A DNA stretch of 36,914 nucleotides from Rickettsiales bacterium. Its GTDB lineage: Bacteria > Pseudomonadota > Alphaproteobacteria > Rs-D84. Both the position numbers and the translations under genes were made by a program. Position 1 is the stretch's first letter; each line of letters opens with the position of its first letter. The stretch spans positions 1 to 36,914 of the forward strand of contig JAITQO010000010.1 in the NCBI GenBank assembly GCA_031288835.1. Reading direction: 5' to 3'. The notes under the pieces were generated by a model. The model saw nothing but the letters and a program-made list of their open reading frames with translations, searched no databases and had not been told where the DNA came from. Below, piece after piece: positions 6,652 through 35,266 of the stretch.

Positions 6652-6999
6652 TCATTCGCAATACGCCGCGTTAAAGTTCATACTATCGGCGAATGGCGAA
6701 AAGTGGTTAGACCATACGCCGGTATTGCCGCCGATTTTGTAAATGGCCTTTGCTACAGCCTCAAATCGGCATTGGTCAAAACAAAATTGTTCGCCGGACG
6801 CATAAATATAGCCCAGGGCTTTACATTTCTTATTTTTCGGTGCGTCATATTTGTAAAGTTTTGTCCCGTGGCCGTCATACAAGAGGATTGCCTGGCCTTT
6901 GCCAGGATTGGCCGGTATCGGCTCCTCAAACAATTCCATTCTTATATTTGTGGAACACGCGGCCAGGAATAGGAACGATAATAAAACAGATTTTTTCAT
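6652..6999 (-). CDS. possible separate lipoprotein (internal start in the same frame)
   Basis: Starting at the internal ATG the product is 115 residues. It has a type II signal peptide ending in the lipobox LAAC (lipidated Cys about residue 14). The mature domain of about 100 residues carries four Cys. A ribosome site and textbook lipoprotein leader make initiation here plausible, either alongside or instead of the 299-residue form. Small lipoproteins in islands often act in immunity or exclusion, but nothing in the sequence shows this. Confidence 0.5.
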   Translation of the reverse strand: MKKSVLLSFLFLAACSTNIRMELFEEPIPANPGKGQAILLYDGHGTKLYKYDAPKNKKCKALGYIYASGEQFCFDQCRFEAVAKAIYKIGGNTGVWSNHFSPFADSMNFNAAYCE

Positions 7000-7551
7000 T
7001 ATTTTGCCTTTTTTATTTTCCTGTGTGTCTGTTATCCTTTTGTCAACGATTGCCCAGATTAAAGATATAAGCCATAGAAACATTGCACCAAAAGTCCAGA
7101 CAAAATCCGGTGTTCTGCTACCGTATTTCACAAGTTGCCGTTTAAGAATCTGTGTTGCCTGTTGACCTGTGAACACCGACACAATCAGTTCATTGCCGTC
7201 ATTGTCTGTTATTGACGGGTTATCTTTTAAGCGTATAATGTCTATATTGCCTTGTATATCGTGCCATTCTGGAATGTAGGGAACAGATATAGAAAAGAAC
7301 GCCAGCAATACAATCTTTCCCCAGTGGACTTTTTTATAATGTGTGGATATGAACATAGGGATAAATAACAATACTGCCGTCAGCAATAATCCTAATATAA
7401 AGCCCAATGCAGGCGCAGTCCCTATGTTATATGCGTTGTCGGCATAAATTAAACTATCGCCATAAATCCAAGACCACCCAAGACCGGCACCGGCCAAAGA
7501 ACCAAGTATCAACAATCCATAAGGAAAGCGTATTTTGTTGTCAGTTTTCAT
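6652..7551 (-). CDS. membrane protein with an in-frame C-terminal lipoprotein module
   Basis: From ATG 7551 (GGGGG 8 bases upstream) the 299-residue frame encodes an N-terminal membrane region with about four hydrophobic helices, then a polar loop. From M185 (codon 6997-6999) it encodes what looks like a complete separate lipoprotein: a basic-hydrophobic leader, lipobox LAAC, then a Cys-containing domain. An AAAAGG site 8 bases before that internal ATG supports independent initiation. No stop separates the two, so this is either a fusion through loss of a stop or overlapping in-frame genes. AT-rich like the other island genes; function unknown. Confidence 0.6.
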   Translation of the reverse strand: MKTDNKIRFPYGLLILGSLAGAGLGWSWIYGDSLIYADNAYNIGTAPALGFILGLLLTAVLLFIPMFISTHYKKVHWGKIVLLAFFSISVPYIPEWHDIQGNIDIIRLKDNPSITDNDGNELIVSVFTGQQATQILKRQLVKYGSRTPDFVWTFGAMFLWLISLIWAIVDKRITDTQENKKGKIMKKSVLLSFLFLAACSTNIRMELFEEPIPANPGKGQAILLYDGHGTKLYKYDAPKNKKCKALGYIYASGEQFCFDQCRFEAVAKAIYKIGGNTGVWSNHFSPFADSMNFNAAYCE

Positions 7552-7577: not shown

Positions 7578-7606
7578 TAAAAACCGCCGTATTGGAATAT
7601 GGCGGT
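7578..7606 (-). terminator. intrinsic terminator-like hairpin upstream of the membrane/lipoprotein ORF
   Basis: On the minus strand ACCGCC and GGCGGT enclose a 12-base loop, followed by TTTTTAATGG. It lies between the start codon at 7551 and any upstream promoter, so it may terminate an upstream transcript or attenuate this gene. Confidence 0.45.
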
Positions 7607-7662
7607 TGGAGGTTATAAACAATCGTATAAATTGCCGTGCCGTATTCAATATATTCTGGCAC

Positions 7663-7688
7663 CCTCCAACCATAGGTTGGAGGTTTTT
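7663..7688 (+). terminator. strong intrinsic terminator on the plus strand
   Basis: CCTCCAACC and GGTTGGAGG form a perfect 9-bp stem with a 3-base loop, followed by five T. No plus-strand gene ends just upstream, so it may end an antisense or small transcript from 7552-7660, or mark a former gene end. I see no other gene in 7552-7970. Confidence 0.55.
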
Positions 7689-30800: not shown

Positions 30801-31919
30801 TCATGCGGCGTCATCGATGCCTATCGTTTCCATGACTTTCGGCACGATTGAATCGGAACTGAAACGCGCCAGGCCCGCGTTGGCATTCGCAATCATTTTT
30901 GCGCAATCAACTTTGCCATGATATACATCCGACATTATTTGCGCCAGTTTGGCGTATTCGCCAACGGGAAAAAGCAACCCTGCTTTACCGTCCATCAAGA
31001 TTTCCCGCGGGCCGGATTTGCAATCCGAGGATATATTCAGCGTGCCGCAGGCAGCAGCCTCTATTATTGCAGTGGGTAATCCCTCCTGCGGACTAGAAAG
31101 TATATGCGCCATCGCGCCCTTCATATAACCATAAGGCTCCGGTATGGTCCCAGTAAAAATTATTTGCTTTTTGGATTCTAATTCGTTGGCCAGATTTTGC
31201 ATGATTTTACGCATAGGCCCGTCTCCGATAATATATAATTTTACATCTGGCTTACCGCCGTCACGCCAAAACTTATCAAATCCCAAAATTATCGTCGCCG
31301 GGTCTTTATCGTTGTTCAGCCTAGATACCGACACGAAGTATTTACCGCCCATCCCGACGTCTACTTTTTTGACTATGTCGGCAATCGGAATAATATTATA
31401 AATCTGCGCGGCCTTTCGGGCATGTTGCGGAAATACTGTAGCAAAGTCATTTTTCATAGATTCGGTCAGTAACACGATTTTGTCGTATTTCAATATCTCG
31501 GAAACATCGTGCGCTCTATCATTGAAAAACGAGTTTGTGCCGCCGTGAAACCACATTATTTTCCGCCCGCGAAATCCATAGATAATTTCTTGGCTGTATC
31601 CATTCTTGAAGTCTATCGCCGCAAAGGCGCCTTTTAAAGCCCTCCGCGCTTTTCCACGGGCCGCATGCAATCGCAGCAAGAAAAATATTTCCCTGAGAAA
31701 CCAACGCTTTTTTCTTCTCGGACATGCTGTATTATCAATAAGTTTTATTCTTTCGCGATTATCCCGAAACCAATTTCTGAAATAAGAATGCCGAACTTTC
31801 CCAACGACGACTATCTCCAAATCTTCACGGATTTTTAGAACATCCAGAAGATTTTTCAAAACCATTTCCGCCCCGCCCATTATCATAATGTCTGCGAAAA
31901 AAACCAATTTCTTCTTCAT
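30801..31919 (-). CDS. glycosyltransferase family 4
   Basis: The 372-residue product has the GT-B fold signatures of group 1 transferases. An N-terminal MIMGGAEMVLKNLLDVL loop is followed by VSRLNNDKDPATIILGF at the domain boundary, LYIIGDGPMRK, then SSPQEGLPTAIIEAAACG with the nucleotide-sugar-binding E-x7-E region. It transfers a sugar to an envelope glycan; donor and acceptor are unknown. ATG 31919 follows a weak GGGGG site. It starts 37 bases after the terminator of structured RNA copy A on the same strand, so it may be under leader control. Confidence 0.85.
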   Translation of the reverse strand: MKKKLVFFADIMIMGGAEMVLKNLLDVLKIREDLEIVVVGKVRHSYFRNWFRDNRERIKLIDNTACPRRKKRWFLREIFFLLRLHAARGKARRALKGAFAAIDFKNGYSQEIIYGFRGRKIMWFHGGTNSFFNDRAHDVSEILKYDKIVLLTESMKNDFATVFPQHARKAAQIYNIIPIADIVKKVDVGMGGKYFVSVSRLNNDKDPATIILGFDKFWRDGGKPDVKLYIIGDGPMRKIMQNLANELESKKQIIFTGTIPEPYGYMKGAMAHILSSPQEGLPTAIIEAAACGTLNISSDCKSGPREILMDGKAGLLFPVGEYAKLAQIMSDVYHGKVDCAKMIANANAGLARFSSDSIVPKVMETIGIDDAA

Positions 31920-31955
31920 TTTATTCAACCCCCATCGGTTCGACTTTTGTGCAAT

Positions 31956-31980
31956 AAAAAACCGCCAAGGACATTGGCGG
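31956..31980 (-). terminator. intrinsic terminator ending structured RNA copy A
   Basis: CCGCCAA/TTGGCGG (7 bp, 5-base loop) and TTTTTT on the minus strand. Stem and T-run equal those of copy B at 34665-34689. It lies between the RNA and the glycosyltransferase start. Confidence 0.85.
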
Positions 31981-32175
31981 TCAGGGAGCTAACAAACCAT
32001 AGTCAAGAATGATTCCGCGACTTTTCGGTTGCCCGTGTTTTATAGTCGACGGCTCCCCGACCACTGCCGGGGGATAATCTCAATGCAAAGACAACCGCTA
32101 TTTTCGGATACCAGTGTCACTGCACTGCTTGACTGTGGACTTGTTATAGCCCTGAACCAAAATCCCTTTGGATTC
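31956..32175 (-). ncRNA. structured RNA, copy A (novel family candidate, upstream of glycosyltransferase)
   Basis: About 220 nt from a predicted +1 at 32175 to the terminator T-run at 31956. It begins with a 5' hairpin AAUCC-AAAG-GGAUU. Three nested long-range helices close the molecule: CAGGG/CCCUG (32150-32154 with 31982-31986), UAACAA/UUGUUA (32141-32146 with 31990-31995) and AGUCAAG/CUUGACU (32128-32134 with 32001-32007). Interior hairpins include CAGUG/CACUG and CCCCG/CGGGG. The paralogue at 34481 keeps all three helices with different bases. No long open frame. I do not recognise tmRNA, 6S, SRP or RNase P signatures. Confidence 0.75.
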
Positions 32176-32181
32176 AGACAT

Positions 32182-32210
32182 ATTATATCCGGGGTCAAAA
32201 ATAAATGCAA
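32182..32210 (-). promoter_or_regulatory. promoter of structured RNA copy A
   Basis: TTGCAT (32205-32210), exactly 17 bases, TATAAT (32182-32187) on the minus strand. It gives +1 at G32175. Confidence 0.8.
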
Positions 32211-34445: not shown

Positions 34446-34474
34446 TTGCACTGGCGCACGGATAATTCTATAAT
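34446..34474 (+). promoter_or_regulatory. promoter of structured RNA copy B
   Basis: TTGCAC (34446-34451), exactly 17 bases, TATAAT (34469-34474); +1 at G34481. Same geometry as the promoter of copy A. Confidence 0.82.
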
Positions 34475-34480
34475 ATGACT

Positions 34481-34689
34481 GAATCCAAAGGGATTTGGGT
34501 TCGGGTTTATCAAAACCTATCTATTGCGGTGCGGAAGCGCCGTTATCCTAAGAATGCCGATGTTTGGCACCGGAATCCCGACTTGGTCGGGTATGTGTGG
34601 CTATATAATAGGATTCGTCCGAAGACCACGGAGTCATTCAATAGATGATTTTGATAATGCCCGACCGCCAATATCCTTGGCGGTTTTTT
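34481..34689 (+). ncRNA. structured RNA, copy B (novel family candidate, upstream of Cys-rich exported protein)
   Basis: About 209 nt. The first 16 bases equal copy A and form the same hairpin. The long-range helices are UCGGG/CCCGA (34501-34505 with 34660-34664), UUAUCAAAA/UUUUGAUAA (34507-34515 with 34649-34657) and AUCUAUUG/CAAUAGAU (34519-34526 with 34639-34646). Interior hairpins are CGGUGC-GGAA-GCGCCG (GNRA-type loop), UGCC/GGCA and CCCGAC/GUCGGG. Motifs shared with copy A are UAUCC.AA.A..GC and CGGARUCAUUC. Ends in a terminator 20 bases before the next gene. Confidence 0.78.
34665..34689 (+). terminator. intrinsic terminator ending structured RNA copy B
   Basis: CCGCCAA/TTGGCGG around TATCC, then TTTTTT. 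It directly abuts helix CCCGA (34660-34664). Confidence 0.87.
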
Positions 34690-34708
34690 AGTAATTTAGG
34701 AGTGGAAT

Positions 34709-35266
34709 ATGAAACTGTTGTTGTTTACCGTGATTATGTCTATTATAACTTTCAATCTTATGGCGATGATAAGGAGGAGCTATTACATCGTCACAAGCAA
34801 AGGCACAATCTCGCTCGGCATGCTCATTTCGATTGACCCGATTTTCGATAATTGCGGCGCTTCATCGATAAGCTGCGCAAATAATACATATTCTAATTCC
34901 GACGGCAGATTATGCGGGAACAACGGGGTGTGCACATCTCAGTCGAGCTATTACGGTAGCGATATTTATCACAAGTATACCGTCAATTTCGAGAATTGTT
35001 CTTCACCCCCCGGGTGGACCGATGTATCTGGGACAAACTACCAGAAAGCCAGTTGCGACGGAAACACATTTTACCGCTGCAAGGGCGGATTTTATGGGAA
35101 AAGCCAAAGTTGCAGCGAATGCCCGTCGTTTTCGTTTGATGGGGTAAATGTTCCTGTGACCAGCATTGCGGGTGATAATTTCGAGTTGGAAACATGTTAT
35201 GCAGTTCCGGGCGATTACAATGGCACCGTAGGCAGGTTCTCAATCCCTGGTTCATGTTATTATTAA
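34709..35266 (+). CDS. Cys-rich exported protein of unknown function
   Basis: The 185-residue product has a hydrophobic N-terminal segment (about residues 2-20) as signal peptide or anchor. An extracytoplasmic part with about a dozen Cys follows, several in short-spaced pairs (FYRCKGGFYGKSQSCSECPS), ending in FSIPGSCYY. The pattern suggests a disulfide-stabilised surface or secreted protein. TAGGAGTGG precedes the ATG. No separate promoter is evident between the RNA terminator (34689) and the start, so expression may depend on read-through of structured RNA copy B. No family recognised. Confidence 0.7.
   Translation: MKLLLFTVIMSIITFNLMAMIRRSYYIVTSKGTISLGMLISIDPIFDNCGASSISCANNTYSNSDGRLCGNNGVCTSQSSYYGSDIYHKYTVNFENCSSPPGWTDVSGTNYQKASCDGNTFYRCKGGFYGKSQSCSECPSFSFDGVNVPVTSIAGDNFELETCYAVPGDYNGTVGRFSIPGSCYY

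Follow-up and report, generated by a model that had tools for sequence, protein, structure and literature searches.

The structured RNA encoded upstream of a glycosyltransferase gene in this genome is probably the 5' leader of that gene, one that attenuates transcription by an antisense-type mechanism and that was domesticated from phages, where such leaders precede antirepressor genes. We give this reading, which rests on sequence comparison and predicted folding, a probability of about two in three. The window that we analysed, i.e., the whole stretch of 36,914 nucleotides, comes from a Rickettsiales bacterium of the order Rs-D84, a group of genome-reduced, probably partner-dependent gut bacteria (PMC12306168). 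The element, hereafter copy A, has the following parts, in order of transcription:

32182..32210, minus strand: promoter, TTGCAT (-35, 32210-32205), 17 nt, TATAAT (-10, 32187-32182); from the sequence, with a layout common to most own-genome copies.
32154..32175, minus strand: hairpin 1, GAAUCCAAAGGGAUUUUGGUUC, at the inferred 5' end of the structured RNA (~32175); kept in nearly all type-1 copies.
32137..32152, minus strand: hairpin 2, whose loop is alpha, UAACAAGU (32146-32139), the complement of alpha', which lies in the junction on the 3' side of P3; from alignment by eye and the cis-versus-swapped test.
32128..32138, minus strand: beta strand, CCACAGUCAAG, the complement of beta' in the P3 loop; from alignment by eye and the cis-versus-swapped test.
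32066..32073, minus strand: strand a, CCCCCGGC, the alternative partner for b; from the upstream alignment and strand comparison.
32053..32062, minus strand: strand b, GGUCGGGGAG, partner of a or c; b:c is paired in 98% of cells.
32021..32045, minus strand: conserved core of the Xcc1-like domain, CUAUAAAACA-hairpin-GAAAAG; from conservation and pair counts.
31993..32014, minus strand: P3 hairpin, with beta' CUUGACUAUGG (32007-31997) and, directly after it, alpha' UUUGUUA (31996-31990); from pair counts and the cis-versus-swapped test.
31979..31988, minus strand: strand c, CUCCCUGACC, the partner of b, sharing ACC with the terminator stem; from pair counts.
31956..31981, minus strand: intrinsic terminator T2, ACCGCCAA-UGUCC-UUGGCGGU-U6; from the sequence, with a 9-pair stem in the terminator scan.
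31929..31933, minus strand: ribosome-binding site GGGGG; from the sequence.
30801..31919, minus strand: regulated gene, a group 1 glycosyltransferase of 372 aa with its ATG at 31919 (Pfam PF00534, E=2.5e-29).

The earlier note had described a promoter, structured RNA, terminator, ribosome site and glycosyltransferase gene succeeding one another on one strand, and the sequence, the terminator scan and Pfam all agree with this. The motif CTTGC...TATAAT was found again in most own-genome copies; TTGCAT was absent from the consensus promoter scan because it has only three of the six consensus positions. The terminator lies 36 nt from the start codon, which is too short for a second promoter. Copy A thus has the layout of an attenuator: the terminator stands between the promoter and a same-strand gene, and a competing helix shares bases with it. 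At the gathering thresholds of Rfam, tRNAs were the sole matches in the whole window. Two further leaders were found there:

34469..34690, plus strand: copy B of the leader, from the -10 box to the terminator; the second copy in the window.
34709..35266, plus strand: the gene behind copy B, 185 aa, with a hydrophobic N-terminus and no Pfam match.
7578..7673, minus strand (wider span 7753-7578): third leader, of subtype 2, with b GGUUGGAGG, c CCUCCAACC and a terminator; from the covariance model.
6652..7551, minus strand: the gene behind the third leader, 299 aa, with a hydrophobic N-terminus and no Pfam match.

The core of the third leader is GAAUAUAUUGAAUA in place of CUAUAAAACA...GAAA, and the plan of a/b/c, alpha/beta and terminator is unchanged. 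This subtype 2 is common within the family.

We searched for further copies with a covariance model (R1) of the 3' half, built from ten own-genome copies and used at E<=0.01. It found about 21 copies in the 789-kb assembly of the same genome. Standard pairs made up 92% of the helix pairs, compared with 31-48% in slid structures. The element is therefore not a chance structure, given its copy number, its pairing above that of slid structures and the second copy in the window. Two contigs of the same assembly (L017:1-155 and L018:1-134) start within a leader, at the same point. The repeats thus probably caused breaks in the assembly, so that the copy count is an underestimate. One locus (L021:4560-4880, minus strand) is an orphan with a promoter-like sequence and hairpin 1 and no recognisable Xcc1-like core. 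Among relatives, R1 matched 47 of 60 genomes, including nearly all of the same family, with a maximum of 58 copies per roughly 1-Mb genome (order Rs-D84, Candidatus Enterousia). In a wider sample of the class the element occurred in 33 of 385 genomes. A pattern scan also placed it in metagenome-assembled genomes of gut Alphaproteobacteria, e.g., Candidatus Enterousia intestinigallinarum, the record of which is 100% identical to genome G035 over 1,740 nt.

The copies are consistently placed in front of genes. We counted a downstream gene when a same-strand ORF with a ribosome site started no more than 110 nt after the terminator, and this was so for 70 of the 77 copies examined (median distance 26 nt). 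Several of the seven exceptions do have a start codon or ORF next, overlooked by the rule. Because the copies recur and a same-strand gene follows closely on the 3' side in 70 of 77, we read copy A as a leader. Hydrophobic (secretion-type) N-termini were called in 52 of the 70 downstream proteins (74%), against 35 of 128 background ORFs (27%; Fisher p=3e-10); the call is a simple hydropathy rule applied without a signal-peptide predictor, and the background ORFs are from the own genome alone. The Pfam domains found downstream include several glycosyltransferase families, Stealth, LicD, PMP repeats, the YadA anchor and autotransporters, as well as OMP barrels, trypsin, N6 methylase and ThyA. 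The families listed for 64 proteins downstream of bacterial copies include no antirepressor domain. In two relatives (L034 and L035) the element precedes an ObgE-like ORF (by eye) and a thymidylate synthase gene (Pfam); a purely surface regulon therefore does not fit. In G035 one leader (L312:1631-3109) lies before an N6 DNA methylase gene of type I restriction-modification type, and defence genes may thus also be part of the regulated set.

Model matches indicate that the 3' half of the leader is a divergent relative of sRNA-Xcc1. The Rfam model RF02221 matched copy A at 32061-31972 over its full length (E=1.4e-5). The score, 40 bits, is below the gathering score of 53 bits, as is that of the best family copy (50.7 bits); E-values among family copies were as low as 1.5e-6. 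The model match and the pair counts both show the structural features of Xcc1: the b:c closing helix, P2 with its AUA-AA-A...GAAA loop, and P3. Phage copies score above the gathering threshold (63-86 bits). The exact Xcc1 pattern had more than 120 matches in viral contigs, and a same-strand gene came next in 103 of the 115 assessable sites (median 89 nt from the pattern end). Among 73 distinct downstream phage proteins, Pfam identified Bro-N in 21, P22_AR_N in 16, KilA-N in 10, Rha in 9 and AntA in 9, i.e., about 65 of 73 of antirepressor type if these counts per family overlap little. Annotated phages concur: Bordetella phage antirepressors, ant of Rac-SA53, and Aaphi23, where Xcc1 lies between Q and ant. 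In a Neisseria record (L074:2690-2820), Xcc1 is followed by another structured element, which contains a long inverted repeat of its own, lies just 5' of a KilA-N-like ORF and may represent a further leader type.

Xcc1 has been treated in the literature as a trans-acting sRNA and not as a leader. Its position directly 5' of antirepressor genes makes a leader the best reading of Xcc1 generally, phages included. The literature searched (excluding subscription papers and preprints) describes neither a role of Xcc1 as the leader of antirepressor genes nor the expansion of this family. The proposal of the earlier note, a leader with an attenuating terminator, is strongly supported, as homologues lie nearly always directly 5' of same-strand genes. 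Its suggestion to examine the context of homologues gave, beyond the counts above for bacteria and phages, a set of mostly surface or secreted proteins with several glycosyltransferases. It overlooked the subtype-2 copy, the 5' antisense segment and the kinship with phage antirepressor leaders. Its candidate antiterminator, pairing of the terminator with GCGGU at 32096-32092, did not hold up: this sequence is missing from most copies, and the strand that is conserved and competes with the terminator is b.

The competition between helices is visible in the variation among copies. Covariation supports b:c, P2 and P2a. Strand c overlaps the terminator stem by three bases, its own last and the stem's first, and both a and c change along with b by subtype (GGUUGGAG with CUCCAAC, GGUCAGGAG with UCCUGA). 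In the second match of L042, ACC has become ACA, with a matching change in b and in the 3' strand of the terminator. Phage leaders are usually without a U-tract after c. We folded 36 copies as RNAs ending just after c. The 3' domain with strand a had a b:c probability of 0.72, which dropped to 0.04 when the 5' part was added, with a:b then at 0.65. Blocking the alpha' and beta' sites alone lowered b:c only to 0.56. For copy A, the full-length fold with alpha/beta paired reaches -89.8 kcal/mol, compared with -76.7 kcal/mol when b:c is forced, a gap of 13 kcal/mol. Because the folding program excludes pseudoknots, these results partly presuppose that alpha/beta and b:c cannot form together. With the terminator complete and no antisense, standard folding gave 0.14 for b:c and 0.81 for the terminator base. 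We therefore rejected the idea that the antisense alone sets the fold at equilibrium: the finished terminator prevails regardless, and b:c thus depends on timing during transcription, on tertiary contacts, or on a ligand or protein.

When the regions upstream of the copies were aligned side by side, alpha, in the loop of hairpin 2, was found to complement the strand between P3 and c, and beta, 3' of hairpin 2, to complement the P3 loop. The best-duplex energy of the whole upstream region against the target was too noisy (the own copy was best in 17 of 52), so we adopted an ordered two-part score. Over 52 copies it averaged 15.7 (sd 1.8) for own pairs and 11.4 (sd 1.4) for swapped ones, of which only 0.5% were as good as the own median. 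Within the single-contig genome G035, 26 leaders gave 15.1 for own and 10.7 for cross pairs, and one of 650 crosses reached the own median. Three paralogues (L327, L330 and L332) are 90-95% identical from b through the start codon and differ compensatorily in beta and beta' (CAGTAG:CTACTG, CCAATA:TATTGG and CCGTTG:CAACGG). These comparisons indicate that alpha and beta are hypervariable in sequence and that their complementarity is retained at each locus. Two leaders of one genome (L316 and L318) share alpha/beta (TGGTG and GCAGACG by score), a possible cross-regulated pair.

Inspection by eye of phage loci gave the order hairpin, beta, CGG, terminator and then Xcc1, with the terminator present in most cases inspected. 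A first two-part score for phages, by which the own copy was best in 5 of 79, failed because its target segment contained strand c; it was replaced by a target limited to P3. With this target the phage beta score was 7.54 for own pairs, 6.22 for swapped pairs and 6.23 for the further-upstream region (p=3e-8). The nearest 130 nt upstream thus scored above the region further up, an effect that is significant and modest, with widely overlapping distributions of own and swapped scores.

The sequence shows that a single promoter serves first an antisense-like segment at the 5' end (both hairpins, the second with alpha in its loop, and strand beta), then the Xcc1-like domain (in order b, the conserved core, P3 with the beta' loop, alpha' and c), the terminator and the gene. 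In the mechanism that we propose, the 3' domain would fold alone in the ON state, b:c would occupy the base of the terminator stem, and polymerase would reach the gene. In the OFF state alpha and beta would pair with alpha' and beta', P3 and b:c would be lost, and a:b and the terminator would form. We infer that antisense pairing is the OFF side from the direction of C4 control and from folding. The antisense could come from within the same transcript or from a short RNA of the same locus. A separate short RNA is doubtful for many copies, because a T-run follows the antisense part in 36 of 75 copies and copy A has no clear terminator there. Some action in trans is nevertheless favoured, because beta and beta' co-diversify on a constant background, as would be expected of copies that do not cross-recognise; such divergence could also arise by neutral drift if the sequence of the helix is unconstrained. 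Locus-specific alpha/beta might let tens of switches coexist without cross-talk, like the C4 immunity sequences of P1 and P7. A broader proposal, to which we give somewhat less than an even chance, is that a genome-reduced gut symbiont controls tens of surface and secreted genes by orthogonal, locus-specific antisense RNAs, a phage immunity-type circuit that has multiplied and become specific as beta and beta' diversified together, and in which every copy would act in trans on the leader of its own locus.

Since b:c loses at equilibrium to the complete terminator, an extra stabiliser is plausible, which speaks for a riboswitch that senses a ligand or protein. Here the core (AUAAAACA...GAAA internal loop, P3 and b:c) would bind a metabolite or protein, stabilise b:c and block termination, and alpha/beta would be an alternative fold of the same molecule. 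The invariant unpaired positions of the core and the surface role common to many regulated genes fit this explanation. We nonetheless consider it unlikely: the Rfam search gave copy A no match to a known riboswitch family, phage antirepressors, symE, secreted proteins, ThyA and glycosyltransferases have no common metabolic pathway, and a purely cis switch would not need hypervariable alpha/beta specificity.

That same specificity, a complementarity of each locus to its own transcript, speaks against a stand-alone trans-acting sRNA of ~220 nt, as Xcc1 has been described, lying upstream of the gene by chance. The element does have its own promoter and a strong terminator, and its relatives were seen as discrete transcripts in Xanthomonas (PMC2996969) and Xylella (PMC12189769). 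The tight same-strand spacing to start codons in bacteria and phages and the bases shared by the switching helix and the terminator stem nonetheless make this explanation improbable. It is still less probable that the element has spread through mobility, as a promoter that moves or as a cassette for recombination (similar to integron attC, or a transposable leader), and is not retained for regulation. The copies are dispersed, contigs C4 and C12 end within a copy, and Xcc1 occurs in Xanthomonas integron cassettes, upstream of symE (PMC12444791). Against this, compensatory changes in alpha/beta, in a/b/c and in the terminator imply an RNA function, and a non-systematic look at the surroundings of copies A and B revealed no recombinase gene. 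An antisense-type attenuating leader thus remains our preferred reading.

A corollary of the broader proposal above is that the sRNA-Xcc1 family of Rfam would generally be a leader of antirepressor genes in phages, the target of an antisense RNA, and not a stand-alone sRNA. A leader role for an RNA published as trans-acting would predict its targets directly, and the Xcc1 family would be tied to the way in which phage antirepressors are controlled by C4-like RNAs. Up to dozens of such leaders would stand before surface proteins in an uncultured lineage of symbionts whose genomes measure ~1 Mb or less. Natural orthogonal pairs of antisense and attenuator would also serve as parts for synthetic regulation.

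The element shares with sRNA-Xcc1 (RF02221) the three-way-junction layout closed by b:c, the AUA-AA-A...GAAA core and the site directly 5' of a same-strand gene, whereas the leader described here is longer: a 5' domain is fused to it, and it has strand a and a strong terminator as well. With C4 of phages P1 and P7 (RF01695; features as in PMC5320573) it shares an upstream loop and a second segment that complement two segments of the downstream leader, are variable and set specificity. This two-segment complementarity was found in the bacterial copies and more weakly in phages, and the antirepressor-type downstream gene was found in the phage relatives and not in the bacterial copies. Unlike in C4, the target overlaps a transcription terminator and not a ribosome site, the regulated genes are chromosomal surface genes, and the antisense and target of copy A are on a single short transcript. 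We rejected membership in Rfam C4, since a search of copy A with RF01695 up to E=5 was negative, as were searches of the phage Xcc1 loci. The c4-a1b1 motif of Weinberg 2010 (PMC2864571) entered the comparison through its table entry alone. As in trp-type attenuators (1:2, 2:3, 3:4), a:b, b:c and the terminator compete in the same order, whereas no leader peptide logic was seen and the proposed controller is the antisense segment. The element, outside Rfam C4 and below the Xcc1 threshold, is thus predicted to act as an attenuator and, at the same time, in the way in which C4 controls ant. Acinetobacter baumannii has about 20 phage-derived group 1 C4-like sRNAs with a variable specificity loop (PMC5320573). 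The targets of those sRNAs are unknown, whereas here the antisense segment lies directly 5' of its own target and gene. They are the nearest precedent for such a domestication.
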